IMG/VR virus record: IMGVR_UViG_3300003321_000392
Span: 1-43,378 of that record
Origin: a virus
DNA: 43,378 nt
Strand: one strand, 5' to 3'
Shown here: one piece after another, positions 20,688 to 39,979 of the stretch
Layout: each line of letters begins with the position of its first letter
Numbering within the stretch: the first letter of the stretch is position 1
Notes under the pieces: generated by a model
Seen by the model: only the letters and a program-made list of their open reading frames with translations
What the model was told of the DNA's origin: nothing
Databases searched by the model: none
Position numbers and translations under genes: made by a program

Positions 20688-22763
20688 ATGCTAATACGCC
20701 TCCCGTGCGGCTGCTGCTGTCAGCTCGCGAAAGAGAGCTTCAATCATCCCGACGAGTCGTTTCAGTTCCCGCCGACCAAGTACGGCTTCAACGCATTCAA
20801 GGGTCATAACAGCAACCGGTGGGAGATCAAGGACAACGTCCTTCAGATCAGGACGGGCGACGGGAACGACTACACCAATGTAGGAACTGTCGGGCTCAAT
20901 CCGTACAGCTACGTCAACTACGCGTCGTTCGGCCCGACGCTGACTCCGTCGAATTTATCGTGCAAGCTTAAGTTCGCTCTCCCGGCGACCGGCAAGTGGC
21001 AGCTCCGCTTCAGCATGGAGACCGGTGAAGGCACCTGCGGACGCTTCGCCGTCGAGATCGAGGCGGTCGGTAGCTGCTGGGCGATGCGGCTCTTCAAGTT
21101 CGACATCGATGACTTCACGGGGCAGGAGCAGATAGGCGACGTCCACGACGTGCCGCTCGACGGCCTGGTGCCAGACACGCTCTACCAGATTAGACTCTGT
21201 ATCGACCCGCAGAAGCGCATGGTGCGCGCCGTGGTCATCGACGACACCGGTCGCGAGCAGTGGCATCACGCGAAGAACATCGAGTTGCAGTGCTGCCCGC
21301 GCGAAGTGTTCATCATGTGGGCCGTGGACGCATCGGTGGACGGCGCGTATAAGTTCGACGACTTCGACTTGAGCGAGATCAAAGTCAGGGGCGGCTCCTA
21401 CGGGACGTACGACGGCGAGACGTATCACACGTGCTACGCCTACTACAATAAGTGTCCCGACTGCTTGCGCTTGAACGACGGTAAGTGCGAAGAAGTCGAA
21501 GGCATCAGCGGCAGCGTCGAAGTAGATGATTGTCGGTGGCACACGATCAGCGGCGGGCGCTGCTACTCCGGTTCGTCGTCCGGCGTAGATAGCAACGGTG
21601 AGCCTGACAACACGACGATGGTGGAGATGTCAATCCACATCCCGCCCGGCGGGACTACGGCCACGACCGACGTCAGCATAGGCGGGACATCGCTGACGTT
21701 CGCGATAGACGGCGATGGCAACTGGACGAACGACTTATCGACCGGAGAGACAGACAGCGGTGCGACAGCAGGGTTGTTGGACACCGACGTGACGCTGCGA
21801 ATATGCTGCTTACCGAACGTCATCGTGGCGTCAGTGATATCGAACGAGACGCCTGCGATCATTCGCTCGATCTTACACCACGTCGGCGAGACCGATTGCA
21901 GCGGCGAAGCGTGCGGGCACGCCGAGGAGATCAACGACTTGCGCGTCGTGCATCACCTGCTCGAGAAGTCCAGCTGCTTTAGGTGTCTCGAGACCCACGA
22001 AGACGTGCTCTGCGGCGACTGCACGCTGCCGCAGGGTAAGACAGTGACTTGGACGGGTGGCGACGACCCACCGCCTCCGGCGACAATCGGCGAGTACGAC
22101 TACACGTGGCAATGCGGGCCGTTCTCATGGGGCATGATTCCCGACCCAGACAATCCCTGCACCTACATCAACGGACTTCCATATGAGACATGGCCCGACG
22201 ACGACTGCTTCGGCTCGGTGACGTACTTCCCTCACGATGCCTTCGGCGTCGCGCCGTGGATGTTCGCCGAAGTAGATTGGATGTGCGCCGCCGCTCAAGC
22301 GCGGCCGAGCCCGCCCGGTATCTTGTGGAACTACAACGACGACCCGTTTCCCGACGTGCCCGTGACTCCGTATCTGCAAGTGATCGAAGAATCAATGGCG
22401 CATCTTGATTTTATCCGAACACAGATTGAGTCGCCAGTATTTCACACTATCTCAGCATGGGGTCGGTCGTACATTGTTCCGTACAGCTTGAGCTTTATCT
22501 TCGGGCAGTTCATAGGCTTCGAGATATACGATATGACGCTTAGGGTCTCGTTGTGGACAGCCGGCGTAGCCCTATTGCAACTGTGGGTGACGAGGCCCAA
22601 CGTGGGCGCGCCGATCGGCTACCAGCTCGCGTACGACGACCCGAGCGGTATCAGCGGTTGCGAGATTTATACTCGCGACATGCACATCGACCATAAGACG
22701 AGCGGCAACGACGTAATCGGTCACTGCGACGCCAAGAACGCTACGGGCGAGGTGATAGGGTGA
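20688..22763 (+). CDS. Large cysteine-rich tail tip/fibre protein
   Basis: The 691-residue protein is the largest in the tail region. It begins with LPCGCCCQLAKESF and has over thirty cysteines overall, including CYAYYNKCPDCLRLNDGKC near 250-270 and SCFRCLETHEDVLCGDC near 425-441. Residues 25-240 look like a jelly-roll or laminin-like beta sandwich. Bases of about 22395-22560 (roughly residues 570-625) are notably lower in GC and encode an aromatic-rich segment. That pattern fits a host-recognition domain under exchange. It is the best receptor-binding candidate here, though no motif proves it. Confidence 0.55.
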   Translation: MLIRLPCGCCCQLAKESFNHPDESFQFPPTKYGFNAFKGHNSNRWEIKDNVLQIRTGDGNDYTNVGTVGLNPYSYVNYASFGPTLTPSNLSCKLKFALPATGKWQLRFSMETGEGTCGRFAVEIEAVGSCWAMRLFKFDIDDFTGQEQIGDVHDVPLDGLVPDTLYQIRLCIDPQKRMVRAVVIDDTGREQWHHAKNIELQCCPREVFIMWAVDASVDGAYKFDDFDLSEIKVRGGSYGTYDGETYHTCYAYYNKCPDCLRLNDGKCEEVEGISGSVEVDDCRWHTISGGRCYSGSSSGVDSNGEPDNTTMVEMSIHIPPGGTTATTDVSIGGTSLTFAIDGDGNWTNDLSTGETDSGATAGLLDTDVTLRICCLPNVIVASVISNETPAIIRSILHHVGETDCSGEACGHAEEINDLRVVHHLLEKSSCFRCLETHEDVLCGDCTLPQGKTVTWTGGDDPPPPATIGEYDYTWQCGPFSWGMIPDPDNPCTYINGLPYETWPDDDCFGSVTYFPHDAFGVAPWMFAEVDWMCAAAQARPSPPGILWNYNDDPFPDVPVTPYLQVIEESMAHLDFIRTQIESPVFHTISAWGRSYIVPYSLSFIFGQFIGFEIYDMTLRVSLWTAGVALLQLWVTRPNVGAPIGYQLAYDDPSGISGCEIYTRDMHIDHKTSGNDVIGHCDAKNATGEVIG

Positions 22764-23818
22764 CGACGCACGTATGCCCAAAGTGTCATCGGGAATGGCG
22801 GGTAGCAGCATTTCCGTTCAACTGCGTGTGTCGACACCAAGCTACGTCGGCTAATCCGAGCTCGATCATTCGTAAGCTGCTCGGTCTCGGGCAGCCGACT
22901 GTGCCAGCGCAGAGTCGACTCGACTGTATTCATCGCGGCGAGCTGCTGAGACTCGAGACATGCAGCGAGTGCCGCGGTAAGATTGAGATCAAGGTGTTCG
23001 AGTGCGCCAAGCACGGCGCGTGCGCCATCAGCAAGCGAATCAACGGCGTGGCGATGTGCGACCACTGCCATACGTATCAGAAGTATCGCGATATCACGAC
23101 GCGGAACCTGATATATCACGTCTGCCCGCTGCGCAATAACGACGGCTGGCGACATAATCTGGCGTTGCTGGCTCGACGCCTCGACGCGTTCAACGGTAAG
23201 CGCATCATCGCGATCGCGACAGGCGACGAATGTGAATCGTCCGTCGAGGTGCACCGCGAACTAAGCGGGCTCGACTACGAGTGCATCCTTCGCCCTAACG
23301 ACCCGGAGCTGCGCGAGGTCGCCACGTTCGCCGACCTATTGCAGGTCGTCGCTAACACGAACAACGACGAGGCGACGTTCTACGCACACTCGAAGGGTAA
23401 CAGCACGGCCGGCGCCGTAGACGGGGCGCAGCGCTGGACCAGCACCATGTATCATGAGCTGCTCGACGACGGCAAGTGGCAGCGATGCATGGAGCATCTC
23501 AAGACGCACGCGGCCGTCGGCATCAACAAGATGGTGTGGGATGATAAGCAGCCGCCGTATCCTAGCCGATTGCGACACGGCAAGTGGATGTTCTCCGGCA
23601 CGTTCTGGTGGATTCGTCACGATGTTGCGTTCGGGCACGATAACTGGTCGTACGTCCCGCGCGATCGGTACGGCGCCGAGGCTTGGCCGAGCGGCGTCAT
23701 CGACGAGTGGTGGCGGGTCAAGTCAGTGTTTCAGCCGTGGCCCGAGACGCAATACCCGACGCCGTCTCCGTATGACCCGTCGCTGTATCCAGAGAAGTAC
23801 GATGAGGAGTGGCGATGA
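22760..23818 (+). CDS. Zinc-ribbon glycosyltransferase-like protein
   Basis: GTG 22760 overlaps the tail gene stop. Residues 1-112 carry cysteine pairs in CPKCHREW, CVCRH, CIHRGELLRLETCSEC and CAKHGAC, then CDHC. This metal-binding module is known from environmental glycosyltransferase-like proteins. Residues 114-352 form an alpha/beta domain with NLIYHVCPLR, EATFYAHSKGNS, and FSGTFWW, then DRYGAEAWPS. The same domain recurs in gene 24474. A role in sugar transfer to virion or host glycans is inferred from family flavour and from the neighbouring epimerase. Confidence 0.6.
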   Translation: MTTHVCPKCHREWRVAAFPFNCVCRHQATSANPSSIIRKLLGLGQPTVPAQSRLDCIHRGELLRLETCSECRGKIEIKVFECAKHGACAISKRINGVAMCDHCHTYQKYRDITTRNLIYHVCPLRNNDGWRHNLALLARRLDAFNGKRIIAIATGDECESSVEVHRELSGLDYECILRPNDPELREVATFADLLQVVANTNNDEATFYAHSKGNSTAGAVDGAQRWTSTMYHELLDDGKWQRCMEHLKTHAAVGINKMVWDDKQPPYPSRLRHGKWMFSGTFWWIRHDVAFGHDNWSYVPRDRYGAEAWPSGVIDEWWRVKSVFQPWPETQYPTPSPYDPSLYPEKYDEEWR

Positions 23819-24465
23819 GACGACCAGACGGCACGCACATTCCGGCAGAGGCGTGGGCAGAGCTGCTGCCTCGCGCGTGCTCGACGATCGACCCATGCGT
23901 CGTCTTGAGGCCATCCATACCGCTGGGACCACGCACCGTCGCAGTGATCGGAACGTATCGAAGTGGAACGTCATTCGTTGCCGAGATTCTGATGCAGCTC
24001 GGCGTTCACATGGGCGACGCGTTCGTGGAGACAGTACCGCGCGCCGACTATGAGTGTTACGAAGACGCAGAGATGCATGACGCTCTCAAAGACGTGATGA
24101 GCCGCAACAAGCATCACGCACAGTGCAATGAGTGGAGATACGTCCAGCAAGTGATCTCAGAGCATGACGCCAAGCACGACGTATGGGGCTTCAAATATCC
24201 AGGCAGTGTGTTCGTGATAGACCGACTGCTGGGAATGTTGCGGAACCCACATTTGATCGTCGTCGTTCGCGACCCGATCGCCACTTGGCAGAGTGACTGG
24301 GCGCACGGCGGACAGATGGCGTGGCCCGTGGTTCGCAATCACATGGCGTGCGTGCTGGACATGATCGAGAAGCCGCGAGCCCCGACGCTGGCCATCAGCT
24401 ACGAGCGCGCCAAGGACCAGAAGAGCGCCGTCGCAGATGCAATAAAATCTTTCTTGAAAGTATAA
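23815..24465 (+). CDS. Sulfotransferase-like protein
   Basis: ATG 23815 overlaps the previous stop (ATGA), giving 216 residues. The 5'-phosphosulfate loop is visible as VAVIGTYRSGTSFVAEIL near residues 42-59, with the family R-S-G-T-S signature. The 3'-phosphate motif VVVRDPIATWQSDW lies near 149-162. Such enzymes move sulfate from PAPS to hydroxyls of sugars or proteins. It sits between two glycosyltransferase-like paralogs, so the acceptor may be a glycan. The stop codon overlaps the late-type TATAAT of the next gene. Confidence 0.78.
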   Translation: MRRPDGTHIPAEAWAELLPRACSTIDPCVVLRPSIPLGPRTVAVIGTYRSGTSFVAEILMQLGVHMGDAFVETVPRADYECYEDAEMHDALKDVMSRNKHHAQCNEWRYVQQVISEHDAKHDVWGFKYPGSVFVIDRLLGMLRNPHLIVVVRDPIATWQSDWAHGGQMAWPVVRNHMACVLDMIEKPRAPTLAISYERAKDQKSAVADAIKSFLKV

Positions 24466-24466
24466 T
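24461..24466 (+). promoter_or_regulatory. Late-type -10 element for gene 24474
   Basis: TATAAT in AAAGTATAATAGCGG overlaps the sulfotransferase stop codon and ends 7 bp before GTG 24474. The start codon has no Shine-Dalgarno sequence. This supports the GTG as a leaderless start, even though GTG is less usual for such mRNAs than ATG. Confidence 0.55.
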
Positions 24467-24473
24467 AGCGGCC

Positions 24474-25232
24474 GTGACTCGGGACCTCATATATCACATC
24501 TGCCCGCTGCGCAGCAACGACCTGTGGCTGCGCAACGTCGAGCAGCTCCTCGCGCGCATCGAGGTGTTCAACGGGCGCCGACTGGTCGCCATCGCCGTCG
24601 GCTCGAACGACTTGCTGCATGACGTCGACCGAGTCAAGCGCGAGCTGAAGGGCCACGGCATCGACTATATTCTGGTGCGCAACGATCGCAACCTACGCGA
24701 GGTCGCGTCGTTCCGGCCCTTGCTGGACGTCGTCGGCGGCGACCCGAACAAGGACCGCGCCGTCTTCTACGCGCACACCAAGGGCAACTCCACGTACGAC
24801 AACGTGGAGGGCGCGACGTACTGGCGCAACGTGATGTATCACGAGCTGCTGGACAAGTGGCAGCGATGTGTCGAGCTGATTCAAGAGGGCTACGCGTTCG
24901 TCGGCACGCACCAGATGATATGGGGCGCGACGCAGAAGTGCCCGTACCCGAGCCGCCTGGCGCACGGACAGTGGATGTTCGCCGGCACGTTCTGGTGGTT
25001 CAGCGCCGCTCGCGTATTCAGTCATCCTCGATGGCGAATCGTTCCGCAGGACCGCTACGGCGCCGAGGCGTGGCCGAGCGGGCTGTTCAATCCCGAGGAG
25101 TGCAAGTCCGTGTGGCAGCCCATCGCTCCGGACAAGCTGTACGGTCGAGACCCGTATGACCCGGAGCTATACGCCAGGATGGGCGCGTGCATCGCCGACT
25201 GCGAACTCAAACACCCGAGCTATCAGATATGA
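24474..25232 (+). CDS. Paralog of the glycosyltransferase-like domain in gene 22760
   Basis: GTG 24474 gives 252 residues aligned over their length with residues 110-350 of the upstream paralog. Shared landmarks are LIYHxCPLRxND, AVFYAHTKGNSTYDN, MYHELLDKWQRC, and FAGTFWWFS, then DRYGAEAWPSG. The N-terminal zinc module is absent. Neither copy has a clear DxD motif, so the sugar-transfer assignment is a family inference. The pair probably arose by duplication with a sulfotransferase between the copies. Confidence 0.6.
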   Translation: MTRDLIYHICPLRSNDLWLRNVEQLLARIEVFNGRRLVAIAVGSNDLLHDVDRVKRELKGHGIDYILVRNDRNLREVASFRPLLDVVGGDPNKDRAVFYAHTKGNSTYDNVEGATYWRNVMYHELLDKWQRCVELIQEGYAFVGTHQMIWGATQKCPYPSRLAHGQWMFAGTFWWFSAARVFSHPRWRIVPQDRYGAEAWPSGLFNPEECKSVWQPIAPDKLYGRDPYDPELYARMGACIADCELKHPSYQI

Positions 25233-26287
25233 GAATCTTGATCACAGGATGCGCCGGACACGTAGGATCAAAACTCGTCGAGTGGATTCTCCGCGAAGAG
25301 CCCAGCGTCGAGCACGTCGTCGGCGTCGATGACTTGTCGTGTGGATACCTCGAGACGGCGGTCAAGCTCGTCGAGTCGAGCCATGGTCGGTTCTGGTTCA
25401 AGCAGTGCGACGCCGGCGACCAGCGCGTCGTCAACGATCACGGGCCGTTTGACGCGGTGTTCCACCTCGCCGCGTACGCCGCCGAGTGCATGAGCGCGTT
25501 CTGTCGCCGGTACAACTACCAGAACAACCTCGTCTCGACCGCCGGGCTCGTCAGCAACTTGATCGACGCCGGATTCAGAGGCAGGCTGGTCTTCACGTCG
25601 AGCATGGCGGCGTACGGCGATGCGCGAGGTTCATCGCCGCCGTTCAGCGAATCGATGCACTGCTCGCCTAAGGACCCATACGGCGTCGCCAAGCTGGCCT
25701 GCGAGCGAGACATCGCGATCGCCGGAGAGCAGCACGGACTCGACTGGTGCGTCCTGCGCCCTCACAACATCTACGGCCCGGGTCAGAGCCTCTGGCAGAA
25801 GTATCGCAACGTCATTGGATTATGGATGCGCGCCGTGCTCGAAAACAAGCCGATCACGATCTTCGGCGACGGCGAGCAGAAGCGCGCGTTCAGCTACGTC
25901 GACGACGTCGTGCCGTGCATCTGGCGCGCCGCGACGTACGATTGCGCGAGCGGTCACGTCATCAATCTGGGCGGGCGCGAGCCGGTCACCATCAACGACC
26001 TGTACGACATCCTGTGCGCCGTGGTGGGGCGCGACGTCGCCGTCGATCGGCAGCCGGCGCGACACGAGGTGAAGCTCGCGTACTGCACGACGCGCCACAG
26101 CGAGGAGCTGCTCGAGTATCGCGAGGCGACGACGCTCGTGGACGGCGTCAAGCGCATGTGGACTTGGGCGCAGGACGCGTGGGAGCGCTACCCAAATCGT
26201 GTTAACATTACGGCGCGGCCGACGACCGAGGACCTAGACACAAGGGTGAAGATGCCGGCTAAATGGCTGGCGGACTATGTCGACTAG
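25229..26287 (+). CDS. NAD-dependent sugar epimerase/dehydratase
   Basis: ATG 25229 is in an ATGA overlap; the product has 352 residues. An extended short-chain dehydrogenase is clear from the Rossmann motif TGCAGHVG (GxxGxxG at 7-13), HLAAYAAE, the catalytic Tyr151-x3-Lys155 in DPYGVAKLACE, and RPHNIYGPGQ, then FGDGEQKRAFSYVDDV. Members act on UDP-, GDP- or dTDP-sugars. It likely supplies a modified nucleotide sugar for the neighbouring transferases. The gene ends just before the first early-type promoter. Confidence 0.88.
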   Translation: MRILITGCAGHVGSKLVEWILREEPSVEHVVGVDDLSCGYLETAVKLVESSHGRFWFKQCDAGDQRVVNDHGPFDAVFHLAAYAAECMSAFCRRYNYQNNLVSTAGLVSNLIDAGFRGRLVFTSSMAAYGDARGSSPPFSESMHCSPKDPYGVAKLACERDIAIAGEQHGLDWCVLRPHNIYGPGQSLWQKYRNVIGLWMRAVLENKPITIFGDGEQKRAFSYVDDVVPCIWRAATYDCASGHVINLGGREPVTINDLYDILCAVVGRDVAVDRQPARHEVKLAYCTTRHSEELLEYREATTLVDGVKRMWTWAQDAWERYPNRVNITARPTTEDLDTRVKMPAKWLADYVD

Positions 26288-31277: not shown

Positions 31278-34115
31278 ATGGCTGTGCCCGCGGTATCGGT
31301 GCTCGCTGAGTTAGATCGCTACCAGATAGCGTACGACTGGGCGGGCGACGACGAAGTGAAGGTAAAGTGCCCGTTCCACGACGACAGCGTCGCGTCGTGC
31401 AACGTCAGCGTGTCGAAGCGGCTCTTCATGTGCCACGCCGGCGGGTGCGGCAAGAAGGGCGACATCATCACGCTGCTCGCGAAGGTGATCGGTCACGCAC
31501 GGGCGGTCGTCCTCGAGGAGCTCGGGCAGCGCTATGACCTAGACGACGTCAAGATCGTCGAGCCGGACGTAGTCGATCGCTGGCACGCGGACATCTGGAG
31601 CGCCGGGCCGCTCCTGTCCGAGCTGTACAAGCGGGCCGTCATCGACGACGACATCAAGAAATACAAACTCGGCGTCGATCACGGTCGCGTCACCATCCCG
31701 ATCGACAACGAGCGACACGACTGGGTCAACGTCCGTAAGTACCTTCCGGGCGCGCCGGGCAACGAGAAAATGAAGAACCAGCGCGGCCGCGGGTCGGCGC
31801 GGTGGTTCCCGATCGAGCAGCTCAGATTTCCGGCCATCGTGCTGTGCGGCGGCGAGCTGAAGTCGATCGTGGCCGCTAGGCAGCTCAATCCACACGGCGT
31901 GGGCGCGATGTGGGCGACGCAGGGCGAGAAGCTGCTGCCGCCGAAGCTGCTCGCGCAGCTCAAGGGCAAATCGGTGGCGTTCTGCCTGGACGTCGACGCG
32001 GCGGGCCGACAGGCCACCGACGAGAACGCTCGCGCGCTGAAGTCGATCGCCAGCGAGATACTCGACGTCAGGCTACCGCTGGACCTCGAGAAGTTCCCGA
32101 AGGGAGACATCAACGACTTCGTCGCCAGCGGCGGCGACATGTGGGAGCTGTACCAGCAAGCCGAGCCATGGCAGGACTCACGCGCCGACAAGCTGGCCGA
32201 GACCGAGCCGGAAGTGATTCACCTGTCGGCGTCGGCCAACGCGCGATACGCCGGCAAGCGCATCGCCGTCACGGCGATCACCAGCGCGATGGACACCGCG
32301 CCGTATAGCGTGCCCAAGGACGTCGTCGTGCACTGTGATCGGTCGCAGACGTTCTGCGCGGCGTGCCCGGTCTTCCCGACCGCCGACGGGAAGTTCGAAG
32401 TCTCGCCGGAGTCGCCCGGCGTACTGGAGTGCATCCAGGCGACGCGGCGCGGCGTACACGAATCGCTGATCGGCGCGCTCGGCATACCGCGAGTCTGTCG
32501 AGTATGCGACTTCGAGGTCGAGACGTATCACAACTGCGAGGACGTCCGACTGACGCCGCAGATCGACATCACGGACCGAACGGCGGACCAGCGAGTGCAG
32601 CCGGCCATCTGCGTCGGCGAGGGCCTCGAGCTGAACGAGCCGTACAAGATGGTCGGTCGGATGTGGCCGCACCCGCAGACGCAGCAGGCCACGCTGCTCA
32701 TCTCGAAGTACGAGCCGACGCGAGACGCGCTGTCCGAGTACGAGCCGACCACCGAGCAGCTCGCCACGCTGGACGTATTCAAGCCGGACGAATGGACTCA
32801 AGATGGAATAGAGAGACGCTTGAACGCTCTGTATTCCGACCTCGAGCTGAACGTCACGCGAATCTACCAGCGCCGCGACCTGCACATGGCGATCGACTTG
32901 GCGTATCACTCACCGCTGCTCATCACGTTCGAGGGCGACATCGTCAAGGGATGGACCGAGGTGCTCGTCGTCGGCGACTCGGCGCAGGGTAAGTCGGAGG
33001 CGGCCCTGCGCATGATGCAGCACTATGGCCTAGGGGAGCGCATCGAATGCAAGAATGCGTCTGTAGCTGGACTCCTCGGCGGGTTGAAGCAATCAGGGTC
33101 GAGGTGGATGGTGGAATGGGGCTTCATACCCAAGCACGACAGGCGCTTAGTGATACTGGAGGAGATCAAGGGGACGAGCACGGAGGTGATCGGAAAGTTG
33201 ACAGATATGCGGAGTTCAGGCGTAGCCGAGCTGAGCAAGATCGAGAAGATGCGAACGCACGCCAGGACTCGCGCGGTGTGGATAAGCAACCCGCGAGCCG
33301 AGGGTCGATCGCTGGCGTCCTATGGGTACGGCATCGAGGCGGCGAGGGAGTTGATGGGAAGCCTCGAGGACCTACGCCGATTCGACCTGGTGTTGCTGCT
33401 CGCCGCGAGCGAAGTCGACGCAGCCGAGATCAATCGACTGCACGCCGCGCGGAACGGTCACCACTGCGTACACGCGCCGGACCTGTGCCGCGCCCTGGTG
33501 CTCTGGGCGTGGACCCGAGCACCGGAGCAGTGCTGCTTCGATAAGCCAGTCGCCAAGCTGTGTCTCAGCGAGGCTACGCGACTGAGCGACCTGTTCAGCG
33601 ACAGCATCCCGGTGGTCGATCGAGGCAGCGCTCGGTTCAAGATCGCTCGACTGGCGGCGTCGCTTGCCTGCCGCACGTTCAGCGCGAGCGAGGACCGAAA
33701 GTCGATCGTCGTGCGAGAGTGCCACGTCGAGTACGCCAGCAAGCTGCTCGAGCGAATATACAGCAAGCCGGCGGCAGCGTACCTCGAGTACACCAAGGCG
33801 CAGCGAGCCAGCGAGGAGCTCATCGACCCGGACTCGATCACTCGCACCATATCGCTGCTGCCGTTCCCCTACGAATTCGCGGAAGCCGTGCTGAAGGTCG
33901 ATCGAGTCGACATGCAGGACCTCATCGACTGGTGCGGCGCAGAGCGAATGGAGGCCGCGCGCATCATGTCGCTGCTCGTGCGCAAGCAAGCCGTCACGCG
34001 AGACGGCGGCGGCTATCGCAAGACCCCGGCGTTCGTCAAGTTCCTGCGGGACGTCATCGAGACGAAGGGCTTCGAGGGTCGTCCCACTCACATTCCTATA
34101 GAGGGAGAGTTCTGA
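31278..34115 (+). CDS. Primase-helicase: CHC2/TOPRIM primase fused to an MCM-like AAA+ helicase
   Basis: The 945-residue protein has three parts. Residues 1-60 are a CHC2-like zinc finger (Cys31, His34, Cys52, Cys57). Residues about 185-260 are a TOPRIM domain with CGGELK and the LDVDAAG acidic pair. The middle (about 350-480) is cysteine-rich with an OB-like ELNEPYKMVGRM block, as in MCM N-domains. The AAA+ core has Walker A GDSAQGKS (Lys572), Walker B RLVILEEI (628-629), sensor-1 WISNPR (Asn671) and an SRF-like arginine finger in LRRFDLVL (Arg701). A winged-helix-like end follows. It should unwind and prime phage DNA. The start has little Shine-Dalgarno sequence but fits the leader. Confidence 0.8.
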   Translation: MAVPAVSVLAELDRYQIAYDWAGDDEVKVKCPFHDDSVASCNVSVSKRLFMCHAGGCGKKGDIITLLAKVIGHARAVVLEELGQRYDLDDVKIVEPDVVDRWHADIWSAGPLLSELYKRAVIDDDIKKYKLGVDHGRVTIPIDNERHDWVNVRKYLPGAPGNEKMKNQRGRGSARWFPIEQLRFPAIVLCGGELKSIVAARQLNPHGVGAMWATQGEKLLPPKLLAQLKGKSVAFCLDVDAAGRQATDENARALKSIASEILDVRLPLDLEKFPKGDINDFVASGGDMWELYQQAEPWQDSRADKLAETEPEVIHLSASANARYAGKRIAVTAITSAMDTAPYSVPKDVVVHCDRSQTFCAACPVFPTADGKFEVSPESPGVLECIQATRRGVHESLIGALGIPRVCRVCDFEVETYHNCEDVRLTPQIDITDRTADQRVQPAICVGEGLELNEPYKMVGRMWPHPQTQQATLLISKYEPTRDALSEYEPTTEQLATLDVFKPDEWTQDGIERRLNALYSDLELNVTRIYQRRDLHMAIDLAYHSPLLITFEGDIVKGWTEVLVVGDSAQGKSEAALRMMQHYGLGERIECKNASVAGLLGGLKQSGSRWMVEWGFIPKHDRRLVILEEIKGTSTEVIGKLTDMRSSGVAELSKIEKMRTHARTRAVWISNPRAEGRSLASYGYGIEAARELMGSLEDLRRFDLVLLLAASEVDAAEINRLHAARNGHHCVHAPDLCRALVLWAWTRAPEQCCFDKPVAKLCLSEATRLSDLFSDSIPVVDRGSARFKIARLAASLACRTFSASEDRKSIVVRECHVEYASKLLERIYSKPAAAYLEYTKAQRASEELIDPDSITRTISLLPFPYEFAEAVLKVDRVDMQDLIDWCGAERMEAARIMSLLVRKQAVTRDGGGYRKTPAFVKFLRDVIETKGFEGRPTHIPIEGEF

Positions 34116-34117
34116 TT

Positions 34118-34699
34118 ATGACCACCATATCGCAAGCACAGCAGATGGTTCACCAGTTCCATGAGCACTGCAAGCTACTCACCAAGGCACAGCTCACGCG
34201 CGAGAACAGTGGCGGCATGAACAGCATGCTCTACGAGACGCACGCGGCGTTGCATCGCCAGTCGATGCAGCTCCAGGAGTGGGTCGGACACGATCGAGGT
34301 CTTCGCGCGCACCTCCTGACCGAGGAGCTGGCGGAGGTCGTTGAAGCGCTGATGAAGGCCGACGAGAAGCAACTGCTCGATGGTCTCGCCGATCTACTGT
34401 ACGTCGTGCTCGGCACAGCCGCGATCTACGATCTCCCGCTCGAGGCCGCGTTCGTCGAGGTGCACCGATCGAACATGACCAAGGAGAAGCAGCCGGACGA
34501 CCCGCACGCGCAGCGGCTGCGCAGCAAGGGTCCGAACTATCGACCGCCGAACATCGAGCGCGTACTGACGAACTATCGTAGCTGGCAGCGGGAGCACGTC
34601 TTCGCGCCGGACGATCTATACTCGCCGTACTGCGAGTGCGGCAGGACGCAGAACGACTCCATTCACATCACACGTAGCATGGAAGACTCTGGACAATGA
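34118..34699 (+). CDS. MazG-like all-alpha NTP pyrophosphohydrolase
   Basis: GGGAGAG lies before ATG 34118, three bases after the primase stop. The 193-residue protein has LLTEELAEVVEALMKADEKQLLDGLADLLYVVLG near residues 67-102, the EExxE...ExxD-like (here DGLAD) helices of MazG, HisE and dUTPase/dCTPase enzymes. VHRSNMTK follows, as in that superfamily. The C-terminus has a short Cys/His group (CECGRTQNDSIHITRS). It would hydrolyse a dNTP, which suits emptying a canonical dCTP or dUTP pool for the genes that follow. ATATCGCA occurs within its first codons (34127-34134). Confidence 0.7.
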   Translation: MTTISQAQQMVHQFHEHCKLLTKAQLTRENSGGMNSMLYETHAALHRQSMQLQEWVGHDRGLRAHLLTEELAEVVEALMKADEKQLLDGLADLLYVVLGTAAIYDLPLEAAFVEVHRSNMTKEKQPDDPHAQRLRSKGPNYRPPNIERVLTNYRSWQREHVFAPDDLYSPYCECGRTQNDSIHITRSMEDSGQ

Positions 34700-35952
34700 G
34701 CGACTTGACCGCCGTAGGCATTCACGTGTTCGCGGGCGGATTCACGCGCGGCGTGCTGGACGCCGGGTGGACCGTGCCGGTGCAGCTCGAGAAGCATGAC
34801 TTTGGCCTGGAGACGACCGCGGTCATGAACGACGTGCCGAGCATCAACGGCGCGAACTGGCCTAAGGTCCAGGCGCGCGTGGCGTTCGGCAACCCACGCT
34901 GCACCGCGTTCTCGACCATCACGTCGGGCGATCGCTACGTGGAGGGCAACACGCACGGCGCGTGGGCCAAGCAGACATGCGACATCCACGAACTGTGTCA
35001 GTACGCCGCCGGGCAGTACGACTTCATCATCTGGGAGTCAGTGCAGCAGGCGTACAAGGCCAGCGGTCGCGAGCTCGTCGATCACTTGATCAAGGAGCAC
35101 TTCGCCGACAAGCACTACCGCGTCGCGCACCTGTTCATCAACGCGGCGACGTTCGGCAACTGCCAGCAGCGCAAGCGCTACTTCTTCGTGGCGTACCGCG
35201 ACTGCTATCGATTCAACGTCGAGCCGCCCGCGATAACCGCGTACTATCCAGTGCTGTGGGACGTCATCAAGGAGACGCGGCACGTCGATGGTCGAGAGTC
35301 GCGACTGCGAGCAGGCGAGTACGACGCCGACTGCTACACGAACCTCACCGAGGACGAGTGGGCCGTAGTGCCGCACCTACCCAACGGATGGTCGCTCCAG
35401 CAGATGGCGCAGTACGACTACGACAACTTGCCGCCGAAGTTCAAGCGAGTATGGGACGATCGCATCAGCGATTTACCGTTCTCACTGCACGGCATCGTGC
35501 GCCTGAACTGGCTGCGACCGTGTCCGACGCTGCACTCGAGCGCCGGGCGATTCCTGCACCCGATCAAGAATAGACCGCTGACGGTCGGCGAGCTGGCGAC
35601 GGTCATGGGATGGCCTCGCATCCCGGTCGGCGATCGGCCAGTCGCGCAGATCGCGAAGGGCATCGTGCCGGCGATCGGCGCGTGGCTCATGAAGCAAGTC
35701 GAGCTGTCGATGGCGAATCACTGGGGCGAGGACGACTGGGAGTCGAGCTTCTGCGATAACTCGCAGGAGTGGGTGGGGCGCGACACGACCGGACAGCTCG
35801 AGAAGACGATCGACATGACCAAGTACGTAGGCAAGCTATTCGACAAGGACCGATACAATGACGAAGCGCTACGAGGAAATCGACTCGATGTGGCTATCGC
35901 TGCTCGCCGACTTAAGGAACAGCGGAAAGAAGCAAAGCTCGCGCAATGGTGA
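34696..35952 (+). CDS. C5-cytosine DNA methyltransferase-like protein with divergent catalytic loop
   Basis: ATG 34696 is in an ATGA overlap. The 418 residues keep the C5-MTase motif order: motif I VFAGGFTRGVLDAGW (11-25), motif IV GNPRCTAFS with Cys69, motif VI as WESVQQ (Glu114), motif VIII NCQQRKRYFFVA (155-166) and motif X TVGELATVMGWP. In standard enzymes motif IV is PCQ and motif VI is ENV; here they read RCT and ESV. The nucleophile and glutamate remain, so activity is plausible but may be altered. The gene overlaps the TS-like gene by 95 bp, which suggests tight coupling. Confidence 0.75.
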   Translation: MSDLTAVGIHVFAGGFTRGVLDAGWTVPVQLEKHDFGLETTAVMNDVPSINGANWPKVQARVAFGNPRCTAFSTITSGDRYVEGNTHGAWAKQTCDIHELCQYAAGQYDFIIWESVQQAYKASGRELVDHLIKEHFADKHYRVAHLFINAATFGNCQQRKRYFFVAYRDCYRFNVEPPAITAYYPVLWDVIKETRHVDGRESRLRAGEYDADCYTNLTEDEWAVVPHLPNGWSLQQMAQYDYDNLPPKFKRVWDDRISDLPFSLHGIVRLNWLRPCPTLHSSAGRFLHPIKNRPLTVGELATVMGWPRIPVGDRPVAQIAKGIVPAIGAWLMKQVELSMANHWGEDDWESSFCDNSQEWVGRDTTGQLEKTIDMTKYVGKLFDKDRYNDEALRGNRLDVAIAARRLKEQRKEAKLAQW

Positions 35953-36868
35953 CACGCGGCAGATCATCGGATGGTCGGGCTGCCTCGAGGATCCGCGGCG
36001 TAACTTCATCGTCAACGAGCGCCGCGCGGTCGACCCGAGCTACGCCTGCGCCGAGCTGCTGTGGTACCTAAGTCGATCGGACGACATCACCATGCTCAAG
36101 GCGTACGCCAACCAGTACGATCGCTTCGCCGAGCCAGGCACGACGCAGGCGTTCGGCGCGTACGGCAAGCGCATCGCGGAGAACGCCGGCATCGATCAAC
36201 TGTGGTACGCCGTGAACAAGCTGATAAATAAGCCGGACACTCGCCAGTGCGTCATCACGCTGTGGAGGCCGAGCGACTTACTGGAGGAAGACCGCCGCGA
36301 CTTGCCGTGCACCGTCTGCTTGCAGTTCATCGTCGAGAACAAGCGGCTTCACATGTGCACGTACATGAGGTCGAACGACGCGTGGCTCGGGTTCCCGTAC
36401 GACGTCTTCTGCTTCACCTGCTTGCAGATGCTCGTCGCCGGCACGATCGGTATCCAGCTCGGGACATACACGCACTTCGTCGGCAACATGCACCTATACG
36501 AGAAGAACGCCGCCGCGACGCGCGAGGCTTCGCTCGAGCGAAGCCTCGCGACGCCGGCGCAAGAATGGATGCCTTATGGCAGCACGCTGTACCACGCCAA
36601 GGACGCAGTGACGCTCGAGCACCTCGTGCGCAACGGATACGGCGACGAGCAGTTCTGCGAAGAGTACTACGCCAGCAAGCTCGGCGGCGAAATGAGCCTA
36701 CTCTCGGACGTCGTTCGCTGCTGTAACGCGAGACACGACTGGGTCGACTGGGACCAGAGAATCGTTTCACCCTCCTTACGCAAAGGACTCGATAATGTTG
36801 ATAATCGAAGGCGCCGATCTAGTCGGCAAGACGACGCTGGCGAAGGCGCTGACAAAGCAGCTCAATGA
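35858..36868 (+). CDS. Thymidylate-synthase-like enzyme, predicted dCMP-specific (hydroxy)methylase
   Basis: AAGGA lies about eight bases before ATG 35858. The TS fold is shown by SCAELLWYLS-like YACAELLWYLSRSDD, the nucleophile motif DLPCTVCLQF with Cys151, MRSNDAWLGFPYD (170-182), and FVGNMHLYEKN. Thymidylate synthases have PCH and Asn in LPFN; here they are PCT and Asp182. T4 dCMP hydroxymethylase has the same Asp swap and the same CT and MRSND residues, so dCMP is the likely substrate, giving 5-hydroxymethyl- or 5-methyl-dCMP. The last 35 residues overlap the kinase gene and are low-complexity run-on. A 30-bp palindrome lies inside the gene. Confidence 0.78.
   Translation: MTKRYEEIDSMWLSLLADLRNSGKKQSSRNGDTRQIIGWSGCLEDPRRNFIVNERRAVDPSYACAELLWYLSRSDDITMLKAYANQYDRFAEPGTTQAFGAYGKRIAENAGIDQLWYAVNKLINKPDTRQCVITLWRPSDLLEEDRRDLPCTVCLQFIVENKRLHMCTYMRSNDAWLGFPYDVFCFTCLQMLVAGTIGIQLGTYTHFVGNMHLYEKNAAATREASLERSLATPAQEWMPYGSTLYHAKDAVTLEHLVRNGYGDEQFCEEYYASKLGGEMSLLSDVVRCCNARHDWVDWDQRIVSPSLRKGLDNVDNRRRRSSRQDDAGEGADKAAQ
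36521..36550 (+). repeat. Perfect 30-bp palindrome inside the TS-like gene
   Basis: The arm CGCGAGGCTTCGCTC (36521-36535) is followed immediately by its exact reverse complement (36536-36550). It encodes about ten residues rich in Arg, Ser and Leu in the C-terminal third of the enzyme, in frame. It can form a 30-nt snap-back in single strands or a cruciform in duplex DNA. Confidence 0.85.
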
Positions 36869-37358
36869 ACTCGGGTGGCCGCACGTCTATCAGCATCTCA
36901 GCAGGCTGCCGACATGCTGGCGCGAGAAGACGGTCGGCAACTACTCGAGGCTGATGAACGCGTACGCGGTGCGCGATCGCTTTCACATGAGCGAGCCGCT
37001 CTACGCGGCGGCTCGCGGCGAGGAGCCGATGCTGTCGCCCGGACAGTATCGCTCCGTGGACGAAGAGGTGAAGTCGCACGGCGGCTATATCATCGTCGTC
37101 ACGGCCGACCCGGAGCTCATCGAGCGACGCTACGCGGAGCACGCGGCTCGCGAGATGTACTCGCTGGACAAAGTGCTCGAGGTCAACGAGGGATTCGTCG
37201 CCATGGCCAATGGTGGATGGGACAACTACGTGAATCCGCTCATGGACCTTCACGTTCACTGCACGCAGGCCGAGCAGTGGCCGGCGCTGCCGCAGTTGCG
37301 TGCCTACACCGCGCGCCTCGCCGCTAACTTCCCGTACCCAGGAGCTCGAGCAGCATGA
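36795..37358 (+). CDS. Deoxynucleoside monophosphate kinase (thymidylate-kinase-like)
   Basis: AAAGGA precedes ATG 36795. The 187-residue P-loop kinase has IIEGADLVGKTTLAKAL (Walker A at 6-14) and VRDRFHMSEPLY, the DR motif that binds the monophosphate. TADPELIERRYAEHAAREMY resembles a lid region with arginines. The substrate is probably the dNMP made by the preceding TS-like enzyme. It overlaps that gene by 74 bp. Confidence 0.78.
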   Translation: MLIIEGADLVGKTTLAKALTKQLNELGWPHVYQHLSRLPTCWREKTVGNYSRLMNAYAVRDRFHMSEPLYAAARGEEPMLSPGQYRSVDEEVKSHGGYIIVVTADPELIERRYAEHAAREMYSLDKVLEVNEGFVAMANGGWDNYVNPLMDLHVHCTQAEQWPALPQLRAYTARLAANFPYPGARAA

Positions 37359-37705: not shown

Positions 37706-37916
37706 GGAACATACCCGACTCGTCGAGGCCGTGTACTGGGCGCTGCGATCGCAGGGCATCAGCGGGTACGAGGACCATCACGCCATCCAGGACGTGAGGA
37801 ACAACTTGGGATGCGGCTACCTAGCCGCCGAGTCCATCGTGCTCGAGATCATGCTATCGGAGCAGGATCTCCCGCGTCCCGTCATCACCAAGACAGACAT
37901 AGGACCGCTATGCTAG
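37623..37916 (+). CDS. N-terminally anchored membrane protein, 97 aa
   Basis: AGGAGA lies just upstream of ATG 37623, which was preferred over ATG 37569 for this reason. Residues 1-21 (LAVIVAEALVIVGLVASLVVARR) form a membrane anchor. The rest is a small soluble domain (RLVEAVYWALRSQGISGYEDH). The end overlaps the polymerase start by 7 bp. The function is unknown. Confidence 0.5.
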   Translation: MLAVIVAEALVIVGLVASLVVARRMWTEEHTRLVEAVYWALRSQGISGYEDHHAIQDVRNNLGCGYLAAESIVLEIMLSEQDLPRPVITKTDIGPLC

Positions 37917-39979
37917 AGCTGTGCAACGGCGGGCTCCTGGTGCAGAGCACCGACGAACTCCCGCGACTCGATTGGTCTCTGATCTTCAAGGACTACGAGA
38001 CTACGTCCTTCGACTGGTACAAGGACGCGCTGAACGTCTGGCGCGACTGCTGGGCGCTTGGCGTCGCGGTGTGCGACGCGCGCAGCAAGGCCTACTATAT
38101 CCCGCTGCGTCACCACGCGAAAATCGACCCATACCACAACCTGGACGTCGACGCGGTGATCGCGTGGCTCGCCGACGGCATGTCGCGATGCCGGCGATGG
38201 GTGAACCACAACGTCAAGTACGACGCCCACGTCGAATACAACGACTTAGGCGTCGACTCGCCGAAGTGCGAGCTGGTCTGTACGGTCACACACGCCAAGA
38301 TCATCGACAGCGATCGACAGTTCCGCGGCGGATACGGACTCGACGCGCTGTCGCTGGCGTGGCTCGGCGAAGACATCTCGGCGTTCGAGAAGGAGATCAA
38401 GCGCTATCTCGGGCGCGACGGACAGGACTACGGATTCATCCCGATCTTGCCGATGGCGACGTACGCCTGCCAAGACGTCCTGACGAACCGTCGCTTGTAT
38501 AAGTACATCGAGCAGCAGCGACCGAAGGCGTGCGTCGGAGTGGCCGACGTCGAGACGAAGCTGACGCGGCGACTCGTCGAGATGGAGCGCGCCGGGCTGT
38601 GCGTCAACCCGACCGAGCTGCAACTGCGCGAGGTGATGGTGATCTCGCGCATGCTCGAATGCGAGACGGAGCTGCACGAGCTGATCGGACGCACGATCAA
38701 CCCGACGAGCACCGACGACGTGTACGACGTGCTCGTCAATCAGTATGGCCTGCCGGTGCTGCACTGGACCGAGGAGGACGAGGACGGCAACCCAGCCGGC
38801 AATCCGAGCTTCGACAAAGAGGGTATGAAGAAGTACCTCGCGTACCCGCTCGCGCCTCGGCGCGTGGTCGAGCTGATCGGCGAGTTCAGGAAGCTCAGCA
38901 CGCATCGCAGCCTGTTCTTGGAGAAGTACCAGAGCCTCGCCACCGCCAGCGAGTCGGCGCACGGCACCGAGTGGTTCCTCCACGGCAGCTACAACCAGTG
39001 CCTGCGCACCGGGCGCATGGGGTGTCGCGAGCCCAACGCGCAGCAGCTCGACAAGAAGACGCAGGAGCTGATTCACCCGAGGCGCGGCAACGCGATCATG
39101 CGAGCAGACCAGTCGCAGATCGAGTTCCGCATCATCGCGCACTACATCAACGACTCGGACGTCATTCGCGCGTACAACGAGAACCCCGACACTGACTTCC
39201 ACGACTGGGTGGCGCAGGTCGCCGGCATGGCGCGCAGTCCGGCGAAGACGATGAACTTCATGATGGGCTACGGCGGCGGCAAGAAGAAGGCCGTGCGCAC
39301 GATGGCGGCAAACGCCGACGTGATCGGCAACTTGCTGGCGAAGGTCGAGGCGCTCGTCGAGGCCGGCACGATTCGTCGCGAGGACGCCAAGAAGGTCTTC
39401 GACGAGATGTGCAAGCAGCGCGGCGAACAGGTGTACGATGAGTATCACCGCACGCTGCCGACGCTCAAGTCGACGAGCCGGCGCGCCGCCGCGACGTGCG
39501 CCGAGCGAGGCTACGTCTTCAACGGCGCCGGGCGCCGGAGACACCTGCCGCAGCAACACGCGCACGTGGCGTTCAACTCACTCTGCCAGAGCTTCGCGGC
39601 CGACATCCAGAAGGAGCGGACCGTCGCGCTGTGCGACGCCATCGACGGCACGCCGATCTTCATGATCGCTAACGTGCACGACGACACCGTACTAGAGGGA
39701 CCGATCAAAGTGATGCGCGATCGCCGGACGCAGGTCGCCGTGGCGTGGATACTCGAGCACACCGCGTACGAGCTGCGAGTGCCGCTGCGAGTGTCGCTCG
39801 GCGTGAGCGAGCTGAACTGGCGCGAGGCCGGCAAGTCGGTGAAGGACGGCGGGACCGCTGGACCGATCATGTACACCGACGCCGAGCGCGAGTGGCTGCT
39901 GTCGACGCCGGCTGTCAGATTGTTCGACTGGCTCCGCGCGAGTGTTGACGATTTGGCTGTCAATATGACACGGCATTAA
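37910..39979 (+). CDS. DNA polymerase A family with 3'-5' exonuclease
   Basis: ATG 37910 was chosen because it overlaps the upstream stop and precedes the exonuclease motif closely. The 689-residue protein has exonuclease motifs DYETTSF (Asp28, Glu30), HNVKYDAH and YACQDVLTNR. Polymerase motif A is MRADQSQIEFRI (Asp400), motif B RSPAKTMNFMMGYGGG, and motif C NVHDDTV (Asp591-Asp592, where most A-family enzymes have VHDE). There is no 5'-3' nuclease domain. It is the phage replicative polymerase and would incorporate whatever nucleotide the upstream cassette makes. Confidence 0.93.
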   Translation: MLELCNGGLLVQSTDELPRLDWSLIFKDYETTSFDWYKDALNVWRDCWALGVAVCDARSKAYYIPLRHHAKIDPYHNLDVDAVIAWLADGMSRCRRWVNHNVKYDAHVEYNDLGVDSPKCELVCTVTHAKIIDSDRQFRGGYGLDALSLAWLGEDISAFEKEIKRYLGRDGQDYGFIPILPMATYACQDVLTNRRLYKYIEQQRPKACVGVADVETKLTRRLVEMERAGLCVNPTELQLREVMVISRMLECETELHELIGRTINPTSTDDVYDVLVNQYGLPVLHWTEEDEDGNPAGNPSFDKEGMKKYLAYPLAPRRVVELIGEFRKLSTHRSLFLEKYQSLATASESAHGTEWFLHGSYNQCLRTGRMGCREPNAQQLDKKTQELIHPRRGNAIMRADQSQIEFRIIAHYINDSDVIRAYNENPDTDFHDWVAQVAGMARSPAKTMNFMMGYGGGKKKAVRTMAANADVIGNLLAKVEALVEAGTIRREDAKKVFDEMCKQRGEQVYDEYHRTLPTLKSTSRRAAATCAERGYVFNGAGRRRHLPQQHAHVAFNSLCQSFAADIQKERTVALCDAIDGTPIFMIANVHDDTVLEGPIKVMRDRRTQVAVAWILEHTAYELRVPLRVSLGVSELNWREAGKSVKDGGTAGPIMYTDAEREWLLSTPAVRLFDWLRASVDDLAVNMTRH

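Follow-up and report, generated by a model that had tools for sequence, protein, structure and literature searches.

The window considered here is the whole of the 43,378 bases of the IMG/VR virus record IMGVR_UViG_3300003321_000392. It carries, in this order, genes for an SNF2-type helicase, a Pam3 gp32-like protein, a hypothetical protein, a Pam3 gp34-like protein (weak match), a primase-helicase and a MazG/PRA-PH pyrophosphohydrolase, followed by those for a C5-methyltransferase-like protein (hereafter the partner), a putative hydroxymethylase, a kinase and a family A polymerase (Table 1). Scans for promoters and terminators gave none exceeding chance.

Table 1. Genes of the locus, residues of the putative hydroxymethylase, and HMUDK_hel proteins of related phages (positions in the window, or in the related locus whose handle precedes the colon)
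Feature	Position	Strand	Basis or remark
Primase-helicase-like protein, upstream of the cassette	31278..34115	+	PF01807 7.3e-9; phrog_18685 (unknown function) 1.4e-77; syntenic in relatives
MazG/PRA-PH-like nucleotide pyrophosphohydrolase, proposed dCTPase	34157..34699	+	PF01503 3.8e-13; PF03819 7.7e-7
C5-cytosine-methyltransferase-like partner, 418 aa	34696..35952	+	PF00145 2.8e-9; 95-nt overlap with the hydroxymethylase gene
Putative dCMP 5-hydroxymethylase (thymidylate-synthase fold), 336 aa	35858..36868	+	PF00303, phrog_160, MilA 5jnh, model
Arg129, proposed phosphate/deoxyribose preference	36242..36244	+	On T4 R123, ThyA R126, SPO1 R139; MilA Lys133
Asp148, three before Cys	36299..36301	+	On T4 D145, SPO1 D159, ThyA L143; 83/83 relatives
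Cys151, predicted nucleophile	36308..36310	+	On T4 C148, ThyA C146; 83/83 relatives
Thr152	36311..36313	+	On ThyA H147, T4 T149, SPO1 N163; T in 81/83 and S in 2/83 relatives
Ser172, proposed deoxyribose preference	36371..36373	+	On T4 S169, ThyA S167, SPO1 S183; MilA Ala176
Asp182, predicted cytosine-recognition residue	36401..36403	+	On T4 D179, ThyA N177, SPO1 N194; 83/83 relatives
Small kinase-like protein, proposed hmdCMP/dNMP kinase	36795..37358	+	phrog_761 3.7e-7; PF02223 0.0054, under cut-off
Family A DNA polymerase	37811..39979	+	PF00476 2e-38
HMUDK_hel protein	L130:10164-11183		Phage with an Asp-type hydroxymethylase
HMUDK_hel protein	L119:2141-3121		Phage with an Asp-type hydroxymethylase
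HMUDK_hel protein	L126:2240-3193		Phage with an Asp-type hydroxymethylase

The product of 35858-36868 matches PF00303 (1.2e-32) and phrog_160 (1e-47), and its nearest solved structure by sequence is that of MilA (5jnh, 2.2e-34), the CMP hydroxymethylase of mildiomycin biosynthesis. An AlphaFold2 model derived from 41 sequences (pLDDT 94.2) predicts a thymidylate-synthase fold. The top seven Foldseek rows obtained with this model are all MilA, on which VIA-align superimposes it with a Z of 36.9 (305 residues, 2.2 A), against ~26 for thymidylate synthases.

When 50,697 phage records were searched by tblastn with this protein, 2,731 of them gave a match, none with at least 60% identity. Best ranked is the 'pyrimidine hmase' from the Manatee Spring phage ctIqW946 (MW202657; 40% identity, residues 1-219), which also carries the Asp discussed below and mostly shares the gene order of the window. 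In contrast with the window, the C5-methyltransferase-like gene of ctIqW946 lies ~7 kb downstream of the hydroxymethylase gene, is 25% identical and encodes PPC. Viral contigs gave no match when searched with the single protein; the search with an alignment gave matches, of which the best 80 of 581 were kept. The whole set of relatives comprises 83 distinct proteins from 101 loci, three of these loci being from named phage records. As all five search seeds carried the Asp, and as the search patterns, which did not include position 182, included Glu66, Ser172 and Asp174, these relatives form a coherent clade and not an unbiased survey.

Active site of the thymidylate-synthase-like protein

The window protein (...RRDLPCTVCLQF...YMRSNDAWLGFPYDVF...) was aligned by MAFFT with T4 gp42, E. 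coli ThyA, SPO1 gp29 and the 83 distinct relatives. Cys151 and Asp182 are encoded at the two ends of the interval 36308-36403, where the original prediction had placed them. It had assigned an Asp to the base-recognition position, and the alignment bears this out, since Asp182 and no other residue falls on ThyA N177 and T4 D179. It had also opposed PCT to the PCH of thymidylate synthases; the residue after the Cys does differ, but the Pro is common to ThyA (APCH) and is not a difference. The likeness drawn with T4 gp42 holds as well: the T4 protein has the Asp, a CT behind a different residue (FMCT) and MRSND.

Asp182, Asp148, Cys151, Ser172, Arg129, Glu66, Tyr102, Asp174, His212 and Tyr214 are identical in all the relatives. 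In T4 numbers, Cys148, Asp179, Thr149, Asp145, Ser169, Arg123, Glu60, His216 and Tyr218 of gp42 are matched in the window protein. MilA shares with it the Asp at the base position and the Asp and Thr on either side of the Cys. The window protein differs from gp42 by its length (336 versus 246 aa), by a fold that is nearer to MilA, and by Gly100 and Gln130 in place of Ser94 and Arg124. The Ser94 of the T4-derived signature is therefore absent; its position is occupied by Gly in 62/83 relatives, by Ala in SPO1 gp29 and by Thr in MilA, and SPO1 gp29 also has Gln in place of Arg124. As SPO1 gp29, which is annotated as a dUMP hydroxymethylase, does without Ser94, this residue was not taken as defining, and the Ala and Gln of SPO1 gp29 suggest that neither T4 residue is required.

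Several published rules bear on these positions. According to work on T4 gp42, Asp179 selects cytosine over uracil and Asp145 is the water-activating residue of hydroxymethylation, on which the role proposed for Asp148 is based; the same work proposes that hydroxymethylating enzymes are marked by a Ser, a Tyr and, three positions ahead of the Cys, an acidic residue, Asp or Glu (PMC6400193). Asp186 of MilA is associated with cytosine, and the roles proposed for Ser172 and Arg129 are likewise taken from work on MilA (PMC5175136). For phage-enriched samples, the MetaGPA study compared 433 sequences of thymidylate synthases and reports that positions 177 and 147 best split modified-cytosine from unmodified contigs, that Asp at 177 accompanies modification and that PF01503 near PF00303 is a pairing from modified contigs (PMC8670742).

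The window protein has an Asp at the position of ThyA Asn177, an acidic residue three before the Cys and the Ser and Arg of T4 positions 169 and 123. Its Asp182 and Thr152 are exactly MetaGPA positions 177 and 147, and since the rule on these positions is already published, the hydroxymethylase joins a known kind of enzyme (PMC8670742). The Asp177 homologues of MetaGPA share with it the Asp, the changed residue at 147 and a nearby PF01503, but are described there with a carbamoyltransferase as partner instead of a C5-methyltransferase-like gene (PMC8670742).

An Asn occupies the position equivalent to 182 in ThyA, in SPO1 gp29 and in a protein of Glutamicibacter phage Montesquieu, close to which lie genes annotated as thymine pyrophosphorylase. 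The product of L003:3838-4500 from Agathobaculum phage AB434P2 is annotated as a deoxyuridylate hydroxymethyltransferase, yet carries Asp183 and Thr153; from these residues, it is more likely a dCMP enzyme.

Probable substrate and product, and proposed pathway

Judged by its sequence and predicted fold, the product of 35858-36868 is very probably a dCMP 5-hydroxymethylase, its chemistry being carried over by analogy from T4 gp42 and MilA. This assignment follows from the Asp, Thr, Asp and Cys found at T4 D179, T149, D145 and C148, from Ser172 and Arg129, which are as in dNMP enzymes, from MilA being nearest in both sequence and predicted fold, and from the Asn, not Asp, of the comparison proteins ThyA, SPO1 gp29 and Montesquieu. 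The genomic context adds the presence of PF01503 near PF00303, a pairing of MetaGPA modified contigs, and the kept order MazG - C5-methyltransferase-like - hydroxymethylase - kinase - PolA. The choice of dCMP as substrate, already made in the original prediction, is thus supported by the alignment of Asp182 and Thr152 and by the published association of Asp with cytosine. Counted against the assignment are Gly100 and Gln130 at the sites of T4 Ser94 and Arg124, the weak kinase match, the preference of the nearest solved relative, MilA, for CMP, and the dCMP deaminase matched in 23/101 loci, which would serve dU metabolism too. This deaminase occurs in 10/34 partner-bearing versus 13/67 other hydroxymethylase loci.

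A dCMP 5-methylase would act on the same substrate and end by hydride transfer to give 5-methyl-dCMP, as occurs in phage Xp12. Such an enzyme would be in line with the missing Ser94 of the hydroxymethylase signature and with the Asn-to-Asp thymidylate synthases that MetaGPA cites as producing 5mdCMP (PMC8670742). It is nonetheless quite improbable, since Asp148, which points to hydroxymethylation rather than methylation, stands where ThyA has Leu143 and is an Asp in T4 gp42, SPO1 gp29 and 83/83 relatives, and since the nearest predicted fold is that of a hydroxymethylase. MilA being the top match by both sequence and fold, the protein could instead be a MilA-like CMP 5-hydroxymethylase providing a modified ribonucleotide that would go into RNA or a small molecule. 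However, in place of the Ala176 and Lys133 that characterize the CMP enzymes (MilA/BcmA), it has Ser172 and Arg129, the same pair as in the A176S/K133R double mutant of MilA, whose preference switches from CMP to dCMP (PMC5175136). As a residue of the dNMP type stands at both positions, Ser172 and Arg129 argue for dCMP rather than CMP, and closeness to MilA does not imply a CMP enzyme; with the gene located within a phage replication cassette, a CMP substrate is very improbable. A dUMP enzyme, either a thymidylate synthase or a dUMP hydroxymethylase, is suggested by the family libraries, which call the product a thymidylate synthase, and by the dCMP deaminase present with many relatives. Against this, the Asn177 and His147 of dUMP thymidylate synthases are replaced by Asp182 and Thr152, a position where SPO1 gp29 has Asn, and the reverse change in T4 gp42, D179N, cuts kcat by up to about 3600-fold (PMC6400193), so that dUMP is extremely improbable as the substrate.

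The dCMP 5-hydroxymethylase reading can be inserted into a pathway of the T4 type. Phage T4 disguises its DNA by dCMP hydroxymethylation: dCTP is hydrolysed, and dCMP is hydroxymethylated, phosphorylated and incorporated into DNA. Taken as a whole, the process encoded by the window could be as follows. Cys151 would attack C6 of dCMP, while Asp182 would read cytosine and protonate N3. C5 would receive a one-carbon unit from methylene-tetrahydrofolate, and the exocyclic methylene would be hydrated by a water molecule that Asp148 activates, leading to 5-hydroxymethyl-dCMP. The MazG-like neighbour would probably remove dCTP, its presumed substrate, and the neighbouring kinase, also of presumed specificity, would together with the host nucleoside diphosphate kinase lead to hmdCTP. 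The phage polymerase would then build 5hmC-containing DNA, and the C5-methyltransferase-like protein would probably act on flipped-out 5hmC or on the remaining C. According to this scheme, 5hmC is probably present in the phage DNA. The hydroxymethylase is a well-supported addition to a known kind and illustrates how phage proteins filed as thymidylate synthases can be given a new name.

The C5-methyltransferase-like partner

The search from the partner gene alone gave 18 loci encoding 13 different proteins, and a relative of the hydroxymethylase is present in 18/18 of them. It is directly downstream of the partner in 17/18 loci, its match starting from -163 to +5 bases relative to the partner stop. 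The reverse linkage is not kept, as tblastn gave no partner in 67/101 hydroxymethylase loci, including that of ctIqW946. No C5-methyltransferase-like gene coupled to a dCMP hydroxymethylase was found in the literature (open-licence PMC papers). The partner protein of the window has no match in named phages, and no relatives of its gene were found in genome contigs, so that no host is named. Distant members of the partner family match annotated phage cytosine methyltransferases with 23-28% identity (27 records, and 65 in another search), which points to a true kinship with methylases. A profile of 24 partner sequences matches M.HaeIII (2e-23), and the predicted structure of the window protein (pLDDT 89.0) is related to M.HaeIII and DNMT1 (Z about 27) and to CmoX (8yf3, Z 23.7).

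The motifs typical of C5 methyltransferases are FxGxGG (I), Pro-Cys (IV), ENV (VI) and GN(S/A)V (X), motif I being involved in cofactor binding. In an alignment that has E. coli Dcm and two phage methylases (KP27, YongM2) as references, the partner retains the fold, the catalytic Cys, the Glu of motif VI and QxRxR; Cys69, Glu114, Gln157, Arg159 and Arg161 are invariant in 26/26 sequences. It carries HVFAGG, NPRC, ESV and AKGI in place of motifs I, IV, VI and X. The Pro before the catalytic Cys is replaced by Arg in 21/26 (NPRC), and Arg68 and Lys321 occur jointly in 21/26. The residue after the Glu of motif VI, Asn in methylases, is Ser in 25/26 and Thr in 1/26. At the motif X Asn, Lys is found in 22/26 (Lys321 in the window protein), Arg in 2/26 and Gln in 2/26. 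Motif I is of the usual length, with HVFAGG facing the LFAGIGG of Dcm, that is HxFxGG for FxGxGG: His replaces the F in 24/26 and an aromatic residue the first Gly, the final two Gly being kept. Its first residue is F, C and F in the Dcm, KP27 and YongM2 methylases, respectively. On the basis of these motifs, the partner is not a typical methylase.

Distribution and possible role of the partner

The related records that were compared number 73: the window, 22 others with the partner and 50 of the remaining hydroxymethylase loci, near-copies and the rest being left out. Gene contents were compared in 11 partner-bearing and 7 partner-free records among them. One family is found in 0/11 of the former versus 6/7 of the latter, and three of its members (Table 1) match the Pfam family HMUDK_hel, '5-hmdU DNA kinase, helical domain'. 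The enzyme behind this name has a hydroxymethylated DNA base as its substrate; in these three phages, the HMUDK_hel proteins may act on 5hmC rather than 5hmU. The dCMP deaminase is found in 4/11 partner-bearing versus 7/7 partner-free records. Several structural gene families are also restricted to partner-bearing records in this comparison, so that the contrast partly reflects kinship.

Of the 73 records, 32 match the partner profile and 18 match HMUDK_hel; the two never coincide (0/73), HMUDK_hel being present in 0/32 partner-matched versus 18/41 other records. These counts include 23 records picked for having the partner and several short fragments, where absence means little. Fisher's test, which ignores relatedness, gives 4.1e-6 with all 32 matches and 3.8e-4 with the 23 strong ones, the 9 weaker matches (E 3.2e-67 to 2.4e-14) perhaps including ordinary methylases. 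On the hydroxymethylase tree, the partner and HMUDK_hel traits need 8 changes each. The 32-row half that includes the window (SH-aLRT 90, midpoint root) has 19 strong and 1 weak partner matches, 11 HMUDK_hel and 1 row with neither, and in the sister pair L047/L049, one has the partner and the other HMUDK_hel. A test on independent pairs gives p 0.5, with 3 supported pairs only and low power. These data are suggestive of a mutual exclusion of the partner and HMUDK_hel.

Carbam_trans_C was found in 1/73 related records, and a carbamoyltransferase was rejected as the usual decorator. A family resembling nucleoside 2-deoxyribosyltransferases is present in 5/7 partner-free and 1/11 partner-bearing records; it includes L122:15475-16251 (- strand) and L119:3045-3572 (+ strand), and one of the two members tested matches PF05014 just under the cut-off.

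Tentatively, the partner would act on 5hmC in DNA. In a possible, still doubtful scheme, it would flip out 5hmC and Cys69 would attack C6; loss of water would give an exocyclic methylene, to which the enzyme would add a nucleophile with a carboxylate, bound through Lys321 in what was once the SAM pocket. Alternatively, the hydroxymethyl would be removed at chosen sites. The partner would thus stand in, as 5hmC decorator, for the HMUDK_hel-type enzyme of the sister phages. Coupling of thiols to 5hmC is a side reaction of C5 methyltransferases. Dehydroxymethylation of 5hmC is also discussed as a side reaction of these enzymes (PMC11347137). A cofactor or co-substrate with a carboxylate is suggested by the basic residue in place of the motif X Asn, since in CmoX the Cx-SAM carboxylate is bound by Arg350, the counterpart of M.HhaI Asn304, and the Lys of M.MpeI N374K does the same (PMC12783734).

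The same residue would also suit a Cx-SAM-dependent cytosine carboxymethyltransferase that, like CmoX, acts on unmodified C; Lys321 would then be the carboxylate-binding residue. The Lys (22/26) or Arg (2/26) found at the motif X Asn of Dcm and M.HaeIII, which is the Asn replaced by Arg350 in CmoX (PMC12783734), and the structural match to CmoX are in favour of this reading. However, the partner has Lys instead of Arg and, in 21/26 sequences, NPRC instead of SPPC, so that it falls outside the published search filter for CmoX (SPPC and Arg350), and it is coupled to a hydroxymethylase, whose replacement of C by 5hmC would leave little substrate. A CmoA in the same phage record is described as typical, although not universal, for CmoX (PMC12783734); CmoA was found in 0/28 partner-bearing records, several of which are fragments, the same search being positive in 9/14 control genomes. 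A phage-borne CmoA was therefore rejected; Cx-SAM could be supplied by the host. Such a carboxymethyltransferase is rather unlikely. It is unlikely as well, and less probable still, that the partner is a diverged but ordinary 5mC methyltransferase marking residual, early or host cytosines. The C5-methyltransferase fold, the residues invariant in 26/26, the length and last two Gly of motif I and the matches of distant members to annotated phage cytosine methyltransferases (27 and 65 records) would all be expected of such an enzyme. The concerted changes of the active site and SAM side (PRC in 21/26, Lys or Arg at the motif X Asn in 24/26, HxFxGG) and the linkage to a hydroxymethylase in 18/18 loci, 5hmC being without free C5, argue against it.

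As the partner lies beside a hydroxymethylase in 18/18 loci and never occurs with HMUDK_hel in the 73 records, the module with its altered partner suggests that DNA cytosine or 5hmC undergoes a step that is as yet undescribed. Should the partner act on 5hmC, the side reactions of C5 methyltransferases on this base would have been put to physiological use; should it add a group to 5hmC, phage DNA would be modified by a new route, and 5hmC labelling might gain a tool. The altered C5-methyltransferase-like gene may represent a novel means of processing such bases.

Elsewhere in the window, 22760-26287 carries a pair of mutually similar ORFs of 352 and 303 aa, which enclose a sulfotransferase-like ORF, both the similarity of the pair and the sulfotransferase name being judged by eye; a nucleotide-sugar epimerase gene (PF01370, 2.8e-42) follows. 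These sugar genes were rejected as part of the module: the epimerase is found in 1/101 loci, at 21%, and the similar ORFs and the sulfotransferase-like ORF in 0/101. They might decorate the virion or the DNA.
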